This document shows positions 58,481 to 62,425 of a stretch of DNA of 64,000 nucleotides, piece by piece (positions within the stretch are counted from its first letter, which is position 1; every line of letters starts with the position of its first letter). Under the pieces are notes generated by a model, which was not told where the DNA came from, made no database searches, and saw nothing but the letters and a program-made list of their open reading frames with translations. Source of the stretch: Methylophilaceae bacterium LSUCC0401 (GTDB taxonomy: Bacteria; Pseudomonadota; Gammaproteobacteria; Burkholderiales; Methylophilaceae); the NCBI GenBank assembly GCA_024919035.1, contig CP103442.1, forward strand, positions 1,178,001 through 1,242,000, in the 5' to 3' direction. A program made the translations under genes and the position numbers.

Positions 58481-58509
58481 AATATATCGTATATTGCTCA
58501 TTTGGTCAA
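58481..58509 (-). promoter_or_regulatory. Sigma-70 promoter of the tRNA-Pro-Arg-His cluster
   Basis: On the minus strand, TTGACC (58504-58509) and TATATT (58481-58486) are separated by exactly 17 bases, and the discriminator that follows is GC-rich (CTCGCG), typical of stringently controlled stable-RNA promoters. The tRNA-Pro 5' end is 8 bases after the -10, so the leader is almost absent. Confidence 0.8.
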
Positions 58510-58576
58510 ATGGAAAATCCCCAAATGGAAAAATGATTACTATTTATATATAATCAATAAATTTGACGGGAAATTT

Positions 58577-59425
58577 ATGACAGCTCAATTAATCAATGGC
58601 AAAGACATTGCCAATAATCTTCTTGAAGAATTAAAGGAAGAAATAGCTCAAAGACTCCAAACAGGAATAAGAAATCCAGCTCTTGCTGTTATTCTTGTCG
58701 GCGAAGATCCTGCGTCAACCGTTTATGTGAACAATAAAAGAAAAGCTTGTGAAAAAGTTGGCATTAAATCCTTATTTTATGACCTTCCGGCTTCAACTTC
58801 ACAGATAGAATTAGAAAGATTAATTAATGATTTAAACCATGATACAAATGTTGATGGCATCCTCGTTCAATCACCATTACCCGAACCATTAGATGAGGAT
58901 CGAATTCTTGATCTTATTTCACCAAATAAGGATGTCGACGGATTTCATCCGATTAACTTAGGATTACTGGCCATGCGTCAACCAAAATTTCGATCTTGCA
59001 CACCATATGGTGTCATTAAAATGCTTAAAGCCATGAATATAGAAGTATCAGGTAAAGATGCTGTGGTAGTTGGAGCATCAAATCATGTTGGTCGACCAAT
59101 GGCTTTTGAGCTTCTGCTCGCTGGTGCAACAGTGACACAGTGCCACAGTAAAACTCAAAATATTCAGGATAAAGTAAACAATGCGGATATTGTCGTTGCC
59201 GCAGTTGGAAGGCCAGAAATGGTGAAGGGTTCTTGGATTAAAAAGGGTGCTGTTGTTATTGATATTGGCATTAATCGAGTAGGTGACAAACTTATTGGAG
59301 ATGTTGAATTTGAGGAAGCTAAAAATAATGCTTCGTTCATAACACCTGTTCCAGGTGGAGTTGGCCCAATGACCGTTGCCACTTTAATGAGTAACACTCT
59401 TGATGCTCAAAAGTTGTATTTATAA
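58577..59425 (+). CDS. folD: Bifunctional methylene-THF dehydrogenase/cyclohydrolase FolD
   Basis: A 282-residue enzyme interconverting methylene-, methenyl- and 10-formyl-THF with NADP. Visible are [25 protein letters not shown] (catalytic Lys in KRK), [28 protein letters not shown], and the Rossmann segment [14 protein letters not shown], ending [16 protein letters not shown] start at the ATG 58577; an in-frame ATG at 58502 would add 25 unrelated residues overlapping the tRNA promoter. It supplies formyl-THF to Fmt and C1 units in a probable methylotroph. Confidence 0.96.
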
Positions 59426-59484
59426 CTGTTTTTTTTATACAAAATAGAGTAAACTTCTGCGGTTCACAATTTAAGGAATTTCAC

Positions 59485-60243
59485 ATGGCGGAAAAAAAAT
59501 CAATTTTTGCAAAAGCAGTAGAAGCCGCTAAAAGTGTAGTAGCTAAACCTGCTGCAAAAAAAGTGGTAGCTAAACCTGTTGCAAAGAAACCTGTTGCAAA
59601 GAAACCTGTTGCAAAGAAACCTGTTGCAAAGAAACCTGTTGCAAAAAAAGTGGTAGCTAAACCTGTTGCAAAGAAACCTGTTGCAAAGAAACCTGCTGCA
59701 AAAAAAGTAGTAGCTAAACCTGTTGCAAAGAAACCTGTTGCAAAGAAACCTGCTGCAAAAAAAGTAGTAGCTAAACCTGTTGCAAAGAAACCTGTTGCAA
59801 AAAAAGTGGTAGCTAAATCACAAGGCTCATCAACGAATAAAACCTTCAAAAAATATGATGCAAAAGCTAATGAGAGCTACATGAGCAAAAATCAAATGAA
59901 ACACTTTAAAGATATTTTAGCCGAATGGAAAAATGAACTGAGTCATGACATTGATAAAACCGTTTCTCATATGCAAGACGAATTAACCTCTTATGCAGAC
60001 CCTAATGATCGAGCTAGCCAAGAATCTGATATGGCTTTAGAGTTAAGAAACCGAGATAGGGAAAGAAAACTGATAAAAAAAATTGAGCAAACGATCAGAA
60101 ATATTGATAATGATGAATATGGTTATTGTGAGCAATGTGGTGAAGAAATTGGTCTCAATAGACTTCAAGCAAGACCGACAGCTACACTCTGTATTGATTG
60201 TAAAACGCTCGATGAAATTAGAGAAAAACAAATGGCCAAGTAA
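59485..60243 (+). CDS. dksA: DksA with long histone-H1-like Lys/Ala/Pro repeat N-terminal tail
   Basis: A 252-residue protein in which a complete DksA follows a repetitive basic tail. Residues about 18-112 are built from P[V/A]AKK and VVAK units, like bacterial histone-H1-type tails. Residues about 130-252 are DksA: a coiled coil with tip motif ADPNDRASQE (D175 and A177 match the residues in E. coli that act at the polymerase active site), LELRNRDRERKLIKKIE, and the zinc finger C215-C218/C236-C239. DksA with ppGpp retunes RNA polymerase; the usual length is about 150. The tail should bind DNA or RNA. AAGGAA precedes the ATG, and a strong terminator follows. Confidence 0.9.
   Translation: MAEKKSIFAKAVEAAKSVVAKPAAKKVVAKPVAKKPVAKKPVAKKPVAKKPVAKKVVAKPVAKKPVAKKPAAKKVVAKPVAKKPVAKKPAAKKVVAKPVAKKPVAKKVVAKSQGSSTNKTFKKYDAKANESYMSKNQMKHFKDILAEWKNELSHDIDKTVSHMQDELTSYADPNDRASQESDMALELRNRDRERKLIKKIEQTIRNIDNDEYGYCEQCGEEIGLNRLQARPTATLCIDCKTLDEIREKQMAK
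59536..59820 (+). repeat. Tandem 15-base repeats coding the DksA tail
   Basis: Near-identical 15-base units (CCTGTTGCAAAGAAA and variants with GCTGCAAAAAAAG) repeat in tandem, interrupted regularly by a 12-base GTGGTAGCTAAA unit. Higher-order blocks of about 57 bases also recur with few changes. Near-identity at the DNA level, including synonymous sites, indicates recent expansion by slippage or recombination, so length polymorphism between strains is likely. Confidence 0.95.
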
Positions 60244-60254
60244 TATTGAGTTAT

Positions 60255-60282
60255 AAAAAAAAGGGGCTTATGCCCCTTTTTT
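60255..60282. terminator. Bidirectional terminator between dksA and pnp
   Basis: A perfect 11-bp stem AAAAAAGGGGC/GCCCCTTTTTT with a TTAT loop. A T tract follows on both strands, so it can end dksA and pnp, whose stop codons lie within 12 and 1 bases of it. Confidence 0.93.
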
Positions 60283-62425
60283 ATTCATCTTCTGGTTCGT
60301 CAACCTCTTTTTTTTCTTCAGCGGGCTTCTCAATTAAAGCTTTCGCACTTACCCTAACTTTTCCTTTTTGATCAACCTCGATGACCTTCACTTTCACTTC
60401 ATCGCCTTCAGATAGATGGTCTTTAACCGCTTTCACACGCTCATGAGCAATCTGAGAAATATGAAGTAAGCCATCTTTTCCAGGTATTAATTGAACAATC
60501 GCACCGAAATCAAGTATTTTGATAACTTTGCCATCATAAATTTGATCGACTTCGACATCAGCTGTAATTTCTTTAATACGATCAATTGCTCTTTGACCTT
60601 CTTCACCCGAAGTACAAGCAACCTTTACTAAACCATCATCCGTAATATCAATGGTAGTATTCGTTTCTTCCGTTAATGCCTTAATCACAGCCCCGCCCTT
60701 ACCAATCACATCGCGAATTTTATCAGGGTGAATTTTTAATGTCATAATGCGAGGAGCATATTGTGATAACTCGGTTCTACTTGATTTTAGAGCTTTTTTC
60801 ATCAAGCCTAAAATATGTTCACGGCCCTCTTTCGCTTGCTTCAGTGCAACTTGCATAATTTCAGTAGTGATACCGTCTATTTTAATGTCCATCTGTAAAG
60901 CCGTAATACCATTATCCGTTCCAGCAACTTTAAAATCCATATCACCCAGGTGATCTTCATCTCCAAGAATATCTGTTAAAACAGCCACACGGTTATCTTC
61001 TTTAATTAACCCCATGGCAATACCTGCAACGTGAGATTTTAAGGGAACACCCGCATCAAGCAGGGCCATGCAACCTCCGCATACAGATGCCATAGAGCTT
61101 GAACCATTGGACTCCATGATTTCAGAAACTAAACGAATCGTATAATCAAATTCTTCTTGATCAGGTAAGACTGCTAACAAAGCTCTTTTTGCTAATCGAC
61201 CATGTCCAATTTCACGTCTCTTTGGAGATCCAACTCGCCCTGTTTCGCCTGTAGAGAATGGTGGAAAATTATAATGCAACATAAAACGATCGTTGTACTC
61301 TCCTTGTAATGCATCAATAATTTGTGCATCTCTTGGTGTACCTAAAGTAGCTACTGCTAATGCTTGGGTTTCCCCTCTAGTAAACAAAGCAGATCCATGG
61401 GTACGGGGAAGAACTCCTGTACTAATTTCAATAGGCCTTACTGTTCTGGTATCTCTTCCATCAATTCTTGGTTCGCCATCAAGAATTTTAGAGCGAACAA
61501 TTTTTGCTTCTAAATTAAAAAATTCTTTATTCACCTCATTGATTTGAAGTGTTCCCATATCATCGGTAATTAATTTTGCACAGACTTTATCTTTGATTTC
61601 ACTGATTTTTTGTGAGCGCTCTGATTTAGATTTTATTTCAAAGGCTTTATTAAGATCTTTTTCAGCCAATTTAGCAATTTCAGCAATTAATGTTTTATTA
61701 GGCTCTGGTGCTGACCAATCCCATGGGTCTTTTGCTGCCTCTTTTGCAAAATCGTTGATGAGTTTAATTACATTTTTAGCTGCTTTATGCCCTTCTAAAA
61801 CGGCATCTAACATCACTTTCTCACTCAGCTCTTTTGCTTCAGACTCAACCATAAGCACTGCATCTTTGGTTCCAGCTACCACTAAATCTAGTTCTGATTC
61901 TGCAAGTTGAGTTTTTGAAGGGTTAATAATGTACTCTCCATCAACATAACCCACTTTAGCTGCACCGATCGGACCATAAAATGGTATACCTGAGATTGAC
62001 AAAGCTGCTGATGCTCCAATGATGGCTGGGACATCTGAATCAATTTCTGAGTCTGAGGATAAGACAGTTGCAACAATTTGCACGTCATTGTAAAAGTTTT
62101 TTGGAAATAGTGGTCGAAGTGGTCGATCTATTAATCGGCAAACTAAAATTTCACTCTCACTAGGTCGGCCTTCTCTTTTAAAAAATCCTCCAGGAATTTT
62201 CCCCGCAGCATATGTTTTTTCTTGATAATCGACAGTTAGTGGGAAAAAATCTTGCCCTTCTTTTACTGACTGATTACCCACTACAGTCACTAAAACAACA
62301 GTATCTCCATAAGACACCATTACCGCACCATCAGCCTGGCGAGCAATTTCACCAGTCTCAATTTTTAATTCATGAGCGCCAAGCTTCATGCTTTTTGTTA
62401 CTTTATTAAACATACTTTTTGTCAT
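60281..62425 (-). CDS. pnp: Polynucleotide phosphorylase
   Basis: A 714-residue 3'-5' phosphorolytic exoribonuclease and degradosome component. Two RNase PH domains (about 10-230 and 315-545) flank an alpha-helical linker. The second carries [48 protein letters not shown] with the phosphate and catalytic residues. A KH domain ([19 protein letters not shown], near 560-620) and an S1 domain (near 625-695) follow. A transcription stop-type hairpin precedes it after rpsO, as in other proteobacteria. Confidence 0.97.

Follow-up and report, generated by a model that had tools for sequence, protein, structure and literature searches.

We found that an open reading frame at 59485..60243 on the plus strand of the window (the whole 64,000-nucleotide stretch that was analysed, from the marine methylotroph Methylophilaceae bacterium LSUCC0401) encodes, from an ATG start to a TAA stop, a 252-aa protein in which an intact core (aa 132-252) of DksA, a transcription factor of the stress response, lies behind a repeat tail of ~95 aa made up of Lys, Ala, Pro and Val. 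The original prediction of a tail of the P[VA]AKK/VVAK type ahead of a complete DksA was thus borne out, the tail spanning aa ~18-112. On balance, and with modest confidence, we favour the reading that core and tail act as one protein in which a disordered, polycationic tail would tether DksA to nucleic acids; the architecture is read from the sequence and the tether is argued by analogy with other basic tails. The single-contig genome of 1,307,234 bases gave one dksA match, and its product is the only DksA detected in this 1.31-Mb Methylophilaceae genome.

A DksA core behind a lysine-rich tail

The core (59878..60240, plus strand) comprises a coiled coil with a D175/A177 tip, a four-cysteine zinc finger (C215/C218/C236/C239) and a C-terminal helix. 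It scored 169.3 bits against the TIGR02420 dksA equivalog model (cut-off 115.5) and matched Pfam DksA_N and zf-dskA_traR. The Escherichia coli protein (1TJL_A; NP_414687.1) aligned without gaps to aa 122-251 (E 4e-52), and 14/14 E. coli residues checked were identical (D71, D74, A76, N88, R91, L95, K98, R125, R129, K139 and Cys 114/117/135/138), D74 and A76 of the tip corresponding to D175 and A177. The expectation that all functional residues would be present in the core therefore held for the 14 that were checked. We take these residues to be functionally important, R91, K98, K139 and others being related to ppGpp. The one model to dissent was NF008045 (PRK10778; 151 positions, E. coli-type full length), which gave 192.4 bits against a cut-off of 289 and aligned at model positions 21-150 only; by all other sequence features tested, the window protein is a DksA. 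In E. coli DksA, by contrast, ~30 residues precede the coiled coil, and a Lys-rich tail is absent.

The region ahead of the core begins with a conserved N-terminal header, MAEKKSIFAKAVEAAKSVVA (codons 1-20, 59485..59544, plus strand), which is alike at M1, K4 and K10 in 19/19 complete sequences of the genus. The repeat tail itself (aa 18-112, 59536..59820, plus strand) was recognized by its composition, by TRF and by a Pfam HC2 match, and a linker (aa 113-131, 59821..59877, plus strand) lies between tail and core. The 95 residues of the tail include 34 K, 23 A, 23 V and 14 P and no acidic residue, giving a net charge of +34, and are built from the units PVAKK, PAAKK and VVAKP, with TRF arrays of periods 15, 42, 57, 72 and 87 between 59545 and 59817. 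The core carries a net charge of -5 (pI 5.3), and the whole protein has a pI of 10. The HC2 match reached 45.6 bits (gathering score 40) as a low-complexity, compositional match, while NCBIfam H1-like models, including hist_H1_lk_Burk, gave 36.2 bits against a cut-off of 80 and 34.6 bits against one of 135; by the NCBIfam cut-offs the window protein is not an H1 protein, though it is H1-like in composition. By charge and hydropathy, residues 1-112 lie beyond the usual boundary, in the disordered region, a weak indication, since the core also lies there. On the minus strand, 59481-59849 holds a 122-aa open frame of FFATG repeats, a mechanical by-product of the tail by which gene callers could be misled. 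The possibility of a sequencing or assembly artefact was rejected, as 31 complete genes of different genomes have the same architecture.

The genome contains 30 copies of the nucleotide pattern AAR-CCN-GYN-GCN-AAR-AAR, on one strand only, 14 of them in dksA and 16 in one other small open reading frame; the reversed pattern, used as a control, occurs 0 times. This second locus (L002, G000:C1:966010-966312, plus strand) is a free-standing 101-aa open reading frame that reads MLDKLVNALMGKESKE and then (PAAKK)n, its 16 pattern matches spaced at 15 bp. Some match to it was present in 24/31 genomes of the genus, part of them to dksA tails; many matches begin at residue 1 and some contain stops, and the frame appears to encode a small, H1-like protein that has been retained. 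The dksA tail as a recent copy of this (PAAKK)n gene was rejected, its repeat codons differing from those of dksA and its header differing by eye. A further locus (L003, G000:C1:1101195-1101515, minus strand) encodes a protein that resembles, by eye, ribosomal protein L17 (rplQ, beside rpoA) and bears a repeat tail, (AAEKKAAKP)n, at its C-terminus.

Upstream of dksA on the same strand lies folD (58502..59425, plus strand) and downstream, convergent with it, pnp, for polynucleotide phosphorylase (60281..62425, minus strand), gene names that we assume from the look of the sequences. An intrinsic-terminator-like hairpin (60257..60282, plus strand) between the convergent dksA and pnp is weak, with 1 found against 1.8 expected in shuffles, and a promoter scan was little better than chance (7 found, shuffle mean 5.5). 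A RelA/SpoT-type gene was matched in 30/31 genomes of the genus, the window's own genome containing a 734-aa frame, and because of these matches a ppGpp role for the window DksA is possible.

Distribution and origin of the tail

Searches of 31 genomes of the genus returned a dksA match in 28, above the cut-off in 26. The 5' end was complete at 19 of these 26 loci (window included), and in each of the 19 the N-region is 58-132 aa long and contains 28-34% Lys; the Lys-rich segment is at least 40 aa long in 16/19 genes and 29-36 aa in L016, L028 and L029. Seven loci were not assessable, five being cut by contig ends (L010, L013, L022, L024, L026), one N-masked in the tail (L005) and one (L015, from a 50%-complete MAG) having the letters of the tail with no start ahead of it. 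The closest named record, Methylophilaceae bacterium LSUCC0717 (CP103436.1), has a core 95% identical and is also tailed. A second small-genome genus, g15, was tailed in 12/12 complete genes (2/14 loci were cut), with other repeats and no header. In the family's other genera the tail was found in 0/48 distinct loci read (36, plus 11 new of a further 13, plus L103; L329/L330 repeat the genomes of L044/L055), and a search of 187 family genomes gave, among the matches listed, no other-genus frame longer than 186 aa. The survey of DksA lengths and tails in related genomes that the original prediction had called for thus yielded tails in 19/19, 12/12 and 0/48 genes or loci of the genus, g15 and the other genera, and absence of the tail from all close relatives, which it had named as evidence against itself, was not seen. 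The window's genus is probably the OM43 clade, and we infer that g15 is Ca. Methylopumilus. Genomes of OM43 are reported at 1.31 Mb and 35% GC and those of Ca. Methylopumilus at 1.28-1.31 Mb (PMC10872708), values which fit the window's genome in size and GC and g15 in size. A term check of the main text of three Methylophilaceae papers (PMC6794327, PMC5120137, PMC10872708) found no mention of DksA.

The tail of the two genera is best fitted by one gain within the family. In an unrooted tree of FolD, DksA core and Pnp (64 rows, 849 columns) the tailed genera formed one side of a branch (SH-aLRT 99.9), and in a rooted tree of 849 columns (49 rows), with 10 order rows holding FolD, DksA core and Pnp as outgroup, they formed one clade inside the tail-less genera (support 99.9, one change), with the caveat that two long small-genome branches could attract each other; set against this caveat, marine OM43 and freshwater Ca. 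Methylopumilus are reported to be sister clades (PMC10872708). With 41 order rows, mostly gappy, in a tree of 105 rows, 2 changes were required to account for the tail in these genera. The gene folD lies upstream of dksA at 21/26 genus loci, 12/14 g15 loci and 36/36 loci of other genera, pnp downstream at 26/26, 14/14 and 19/36, and both at 21/26, 12/14 and 19/36; the tailed-genera loci without folD are those cut by contig ends, and at the 17/36 tail-less loci without pnp in the DNA examined the downstream neighbour may differ. Horizontal replacement of dksA was rejected, as folD and pnp flank the gene in both tailed genera as far as the contigs extend and the rooted tree nests these genera in the family.

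Beyond the family, we sampled 143 gammaproteobacterial genomes, one per family; 128 were above the cut-off, including the window's, and the other 127 were all read. To count as a tail, a Lys-rich N-segment had to reach 40 aa and 20% Lys, thresholds that we set ourselves, with a scoring that disfavours acidic residues by construction. By this rule 47/127 other families were tailed (44-239 aa, median 111 aa, median 35% Lys), 8/127 had a shorter Lys-rich segment (15-39 aa) and 72/127 had none, long basic N-regions with <20% Lys being counted as none (for example, L219, L249, L259 and L261). For G482 the second above-cut-off copy was used, the best copy being partial, and second copies L260 and L265 (untailed) and the sub-cut-off copy L264 (tailed) were left out. 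As a control, 0/888 non-DksA stop-to-stop frames of at least 150 aa from the loci surveyed satisfied the rule, loci picked by the tail motif being excluded; among those picked loci 16 non-DksA frames did so, several of them DksA/TraR-type proteins below the parser threshold. Presence of a tail was independent of GC in the class sample (Mann-Whitney p 0.91), and an artefact of AT-richness was rejected on this ground. The tailed forms keep the core, with D74 in 45/47, A76 and R91 each in 47/47 and K98 almost always. On a class core tree (171 rows, 121 columns, mostly unresolved) the tail label required 33 changes, compared with a mean of 49.9 after shuffling, and supported branches forced at least 6 of the 33. 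As judged from these sequences, the tail is wide but patchy in its occurrence in Gammaproteobacteria, and clustered, but gained and/or lost many times; it comes and goes on the class tree, and many lineages therefore do without it. Named tailed examples include Pseudomonadales bacterium BS301-5m-G64, with a 4-Cys core, and an uncultured Coxiella sp.

Divergent cores also occur with tails, as in Rhodanobacter, Dyella and Thermomonas. Among the Lysobacterales, tailed forms (L135, L137, L139, L142, L145) lack most zinc cysteines (YGYCEETDEEIG...ATLSLDAQ or similar) and keep the coiled-coil region, and in this divergence of the core they are unlike the window protein. Distant DksA/TraR-type proteins of Bacteroidetes (L144, L155, L163, L165), Spartobacteria (L168) and one other bacterium (L159) have long Lys/Ala-rich N-tails as well, apparently a separate instance of this design.

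An order sample of 300 genomes gave, among the matches listed, 41 loci outside the family that were read, with tails in 0/41. A search of 150 genomes with a divergent order DksA added 43 loci (the 30 best and 13 picked because their frames were long, L339 and L368 being loci already covered), of which 6 (L366, L372, L373, L374, L377, L381) had Lys/Ala-rich N-tails and several more were just under the threshold; the cores of the divergent DksA scored ~102-113 bits with the HMM of this analysis, compared with at least 200 for most canonical ones. These 6/43 rule out an order-wide absence of tails outside the family. Long frames in the order were rejected as tails, 0/20 loci (13 with frames >200 aa) being Lys-rich. 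The statement that a normal DksA has no such domain is thus right for E. coli and for the 41 order loci read first, but not for 47/127 families or for the 6/43 divergent order loci; on these sequences the tail-less textbook DksA is one of two common forms, tails being present in over a third of the families sampled.

Possible roles of the tail

In the reading that we favour, the core would act with ppGpp at RNA polymerase as an ordinary DksA, and control by ppGpp would stay in the core. The tail would be disordered and would bind DNA, and perhaps nascent RNA, by charge and with no sequence preference. Acidic in its core (pI 5.3), the protein would become basic as a whole (pI 10) through the tail and would dwell near the nucleoid. 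Such a tether would lift the local concentration of DksA at polymerase, so that fewer molecules would be needed for the same secondary-channel occupancy, and the repeat number, being quick to change, would tune its strength. We infer an electrostatic DNA tether because the KPAA/PAKK tails of PhaF, AlgP and HupB are the best precedents. In Pseudomonas, PhaF and AlgP likewise have short K/P/A tandem repeats, reported to be disordered and fused to a functional domain (PMC3574117, PMC9239181), and the KPAA domain of PhaF is described as unfolded alone, binding DNA non-specifically and positioning granules (PMC3574117); unlike the dksA tail, these repeats are C-terminal, and the domain that carries them is a phasin or helical one and no part of a polymerase factor. 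The H1-like basic PAKK/KAAK tail of mycobacterial HupB is reported to be indispensable for nucleoid association (PMC5676037), but is C-terminal and on a DNA-binding HU domain. The original prediction went on to couple stringent control with chromatin-like compaction, which is beyond the evidence; three HU/IHF-family genes and the free H1-like open reading frame are present in the window's genome, and compaction made by DksA is therefore not needed.

The strongest competitor, which we regard as unlikely yet worth weighing, is that the tail is a nearly neutral slippage by-product of a short Lys-rich N-terminus, tolerated because that end lies apart from the working parts of DksA. The repeats are indeed fresh (the 57-bp unit has 97% matches by TRF), the N-region varies from 58 to 132 aa within the genus, tails flip often on the class tree, and a basic start (at least 3 K in the first 13 residues, with the start roughly chosen) is present in 18/68 assessable untailed forms. 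Close pairs of tails also accumulate amino-acid changes, with 6 against 0 synonymous changes in L009/L011 and 4 against 1 in L074/L075. Neutral slippage fits less well with a Lys-rich tail in 31/31 complete genes from two genera whose genomes measure 1.3 Mb, with the absence of acidic residues from aa 18-112 of the window protein, or with the 47/127 families tailed at any GC. The header and the diverged tails moreover have pN/pS below 1: in diverged tails of equal length, pN/pS was 0.13/0.38 (L020/L027) and 0.18/0.42 (L063/L074, with L063/L075 alike), the core being more constrained than the tail (pN 0.02-0.04 in the same pairs). Lys composition is kept while the repeats turn over, the K fraction of the N-region being 0.28-0.34 in the 19 genus genes and 0.36-0.39 in the 12 of g15.

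We think it rather improbable that the tail works inside the transcription complex instead, on polymerase, downstream DNA or nascent RNA, tightening binding or changing output and not serving as a bulk-nucleoid tether. The position of the tail directly ahead of the core would suit such a role, as would the acidity of the core (net -5), which makes the tail a new interaction surface, and two solved SigA chains weakly match the Lys/Ala-rich stretch (E 0.004). Against this, we found no conserved motif within the repeats beyond composition, the repeats differ between the two genera, and a sequence search of solved structures found no tailed DksA.

Binding of polyphosphate, or the driving of starvation condensates, is a very improbable function for the tail. 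Of four Lys-rich Pseudomonas aeruginosa proteins tested, two are reported to bind polyphosphate (PMC12077175), and AlgP is reported to associate with polyphosphate granules (PMC9239181); however, the window's genome had no match to PPK1 (PF02503) or PPK2 (PF03976), in searches that were positive in 7 and 8 of 14 control genomes, and polyphosphate is therefore not expected as a partner here. Polyphosphate binding could still hold in other tailed families.

The tail is most likely translated from the upstream ATG, as judged from sequence signals at the start. A Shine-Dalgarno-like AAGGAA (59473..59478, plus strand) lies 6 nt 5' of this ATG, and one of the five motifs used (AGGA, GGAG, AGGG, GGGA, AAGG) precedes the equivalent start in 31/31 complete genes of the two tailed genera, window included; in the same genes the test was positive at 43/279 internal start-like codons and 596/6675 internal codons. 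The first 18 codons of the header had a mean pairwise pS of 0.64 and pN of 0.20 among 19 genus members. That translation begins after the repeats and the tail is not made, which the original prediction had named as evidence against itself, is scarcely credible: in-frame ATG (133, 138) and GTG (27, 56, 108) codons exist, but none is accompanied by any of the five motifs, whereas 31/31 genes have one at the upstream start, and the header and the diverged tails are under coding-type constraint. A long translated N-region has a parallel in Xanthomonas euvesicatoria, where mass spectrometry and start-codon mutants are reported to have detected a DksA of 256 aa compared with the annotated 147 aa, a processed form also being seen (PMC5559785). 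A long DksA N-region can therefore, on that report, be translated; the likeness that we draw to the window protein is one of length.

Implications for stringent control

Most of what is known of the mechanism of DksA comes from E. coli, whose protein has no tail. In the open-access literature we found no description of Lys-rich DksA tails as a class, the corrected length in Xanthomonas aside. We suggest only tentatively, and with more doubt than for the window protein itself, that many Gammaproteobacteria have repeatedly, and independently of GC, made their DksA nucleoid-tethered by means of an H1-like disordered tail. If tails of ~110 aa are present in 47/127 families, models of ppGpp and DksA may miss a layer of localization or affinity, and, if the tethering reading is true, stringent control of transcription would depend on the position of DksA on the chromosome, which could not be learned from the E. 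coli protein. Strikingly, lineages with small genomes, which shed DNA, acquired a repeat tail on this single factor and have retained it.
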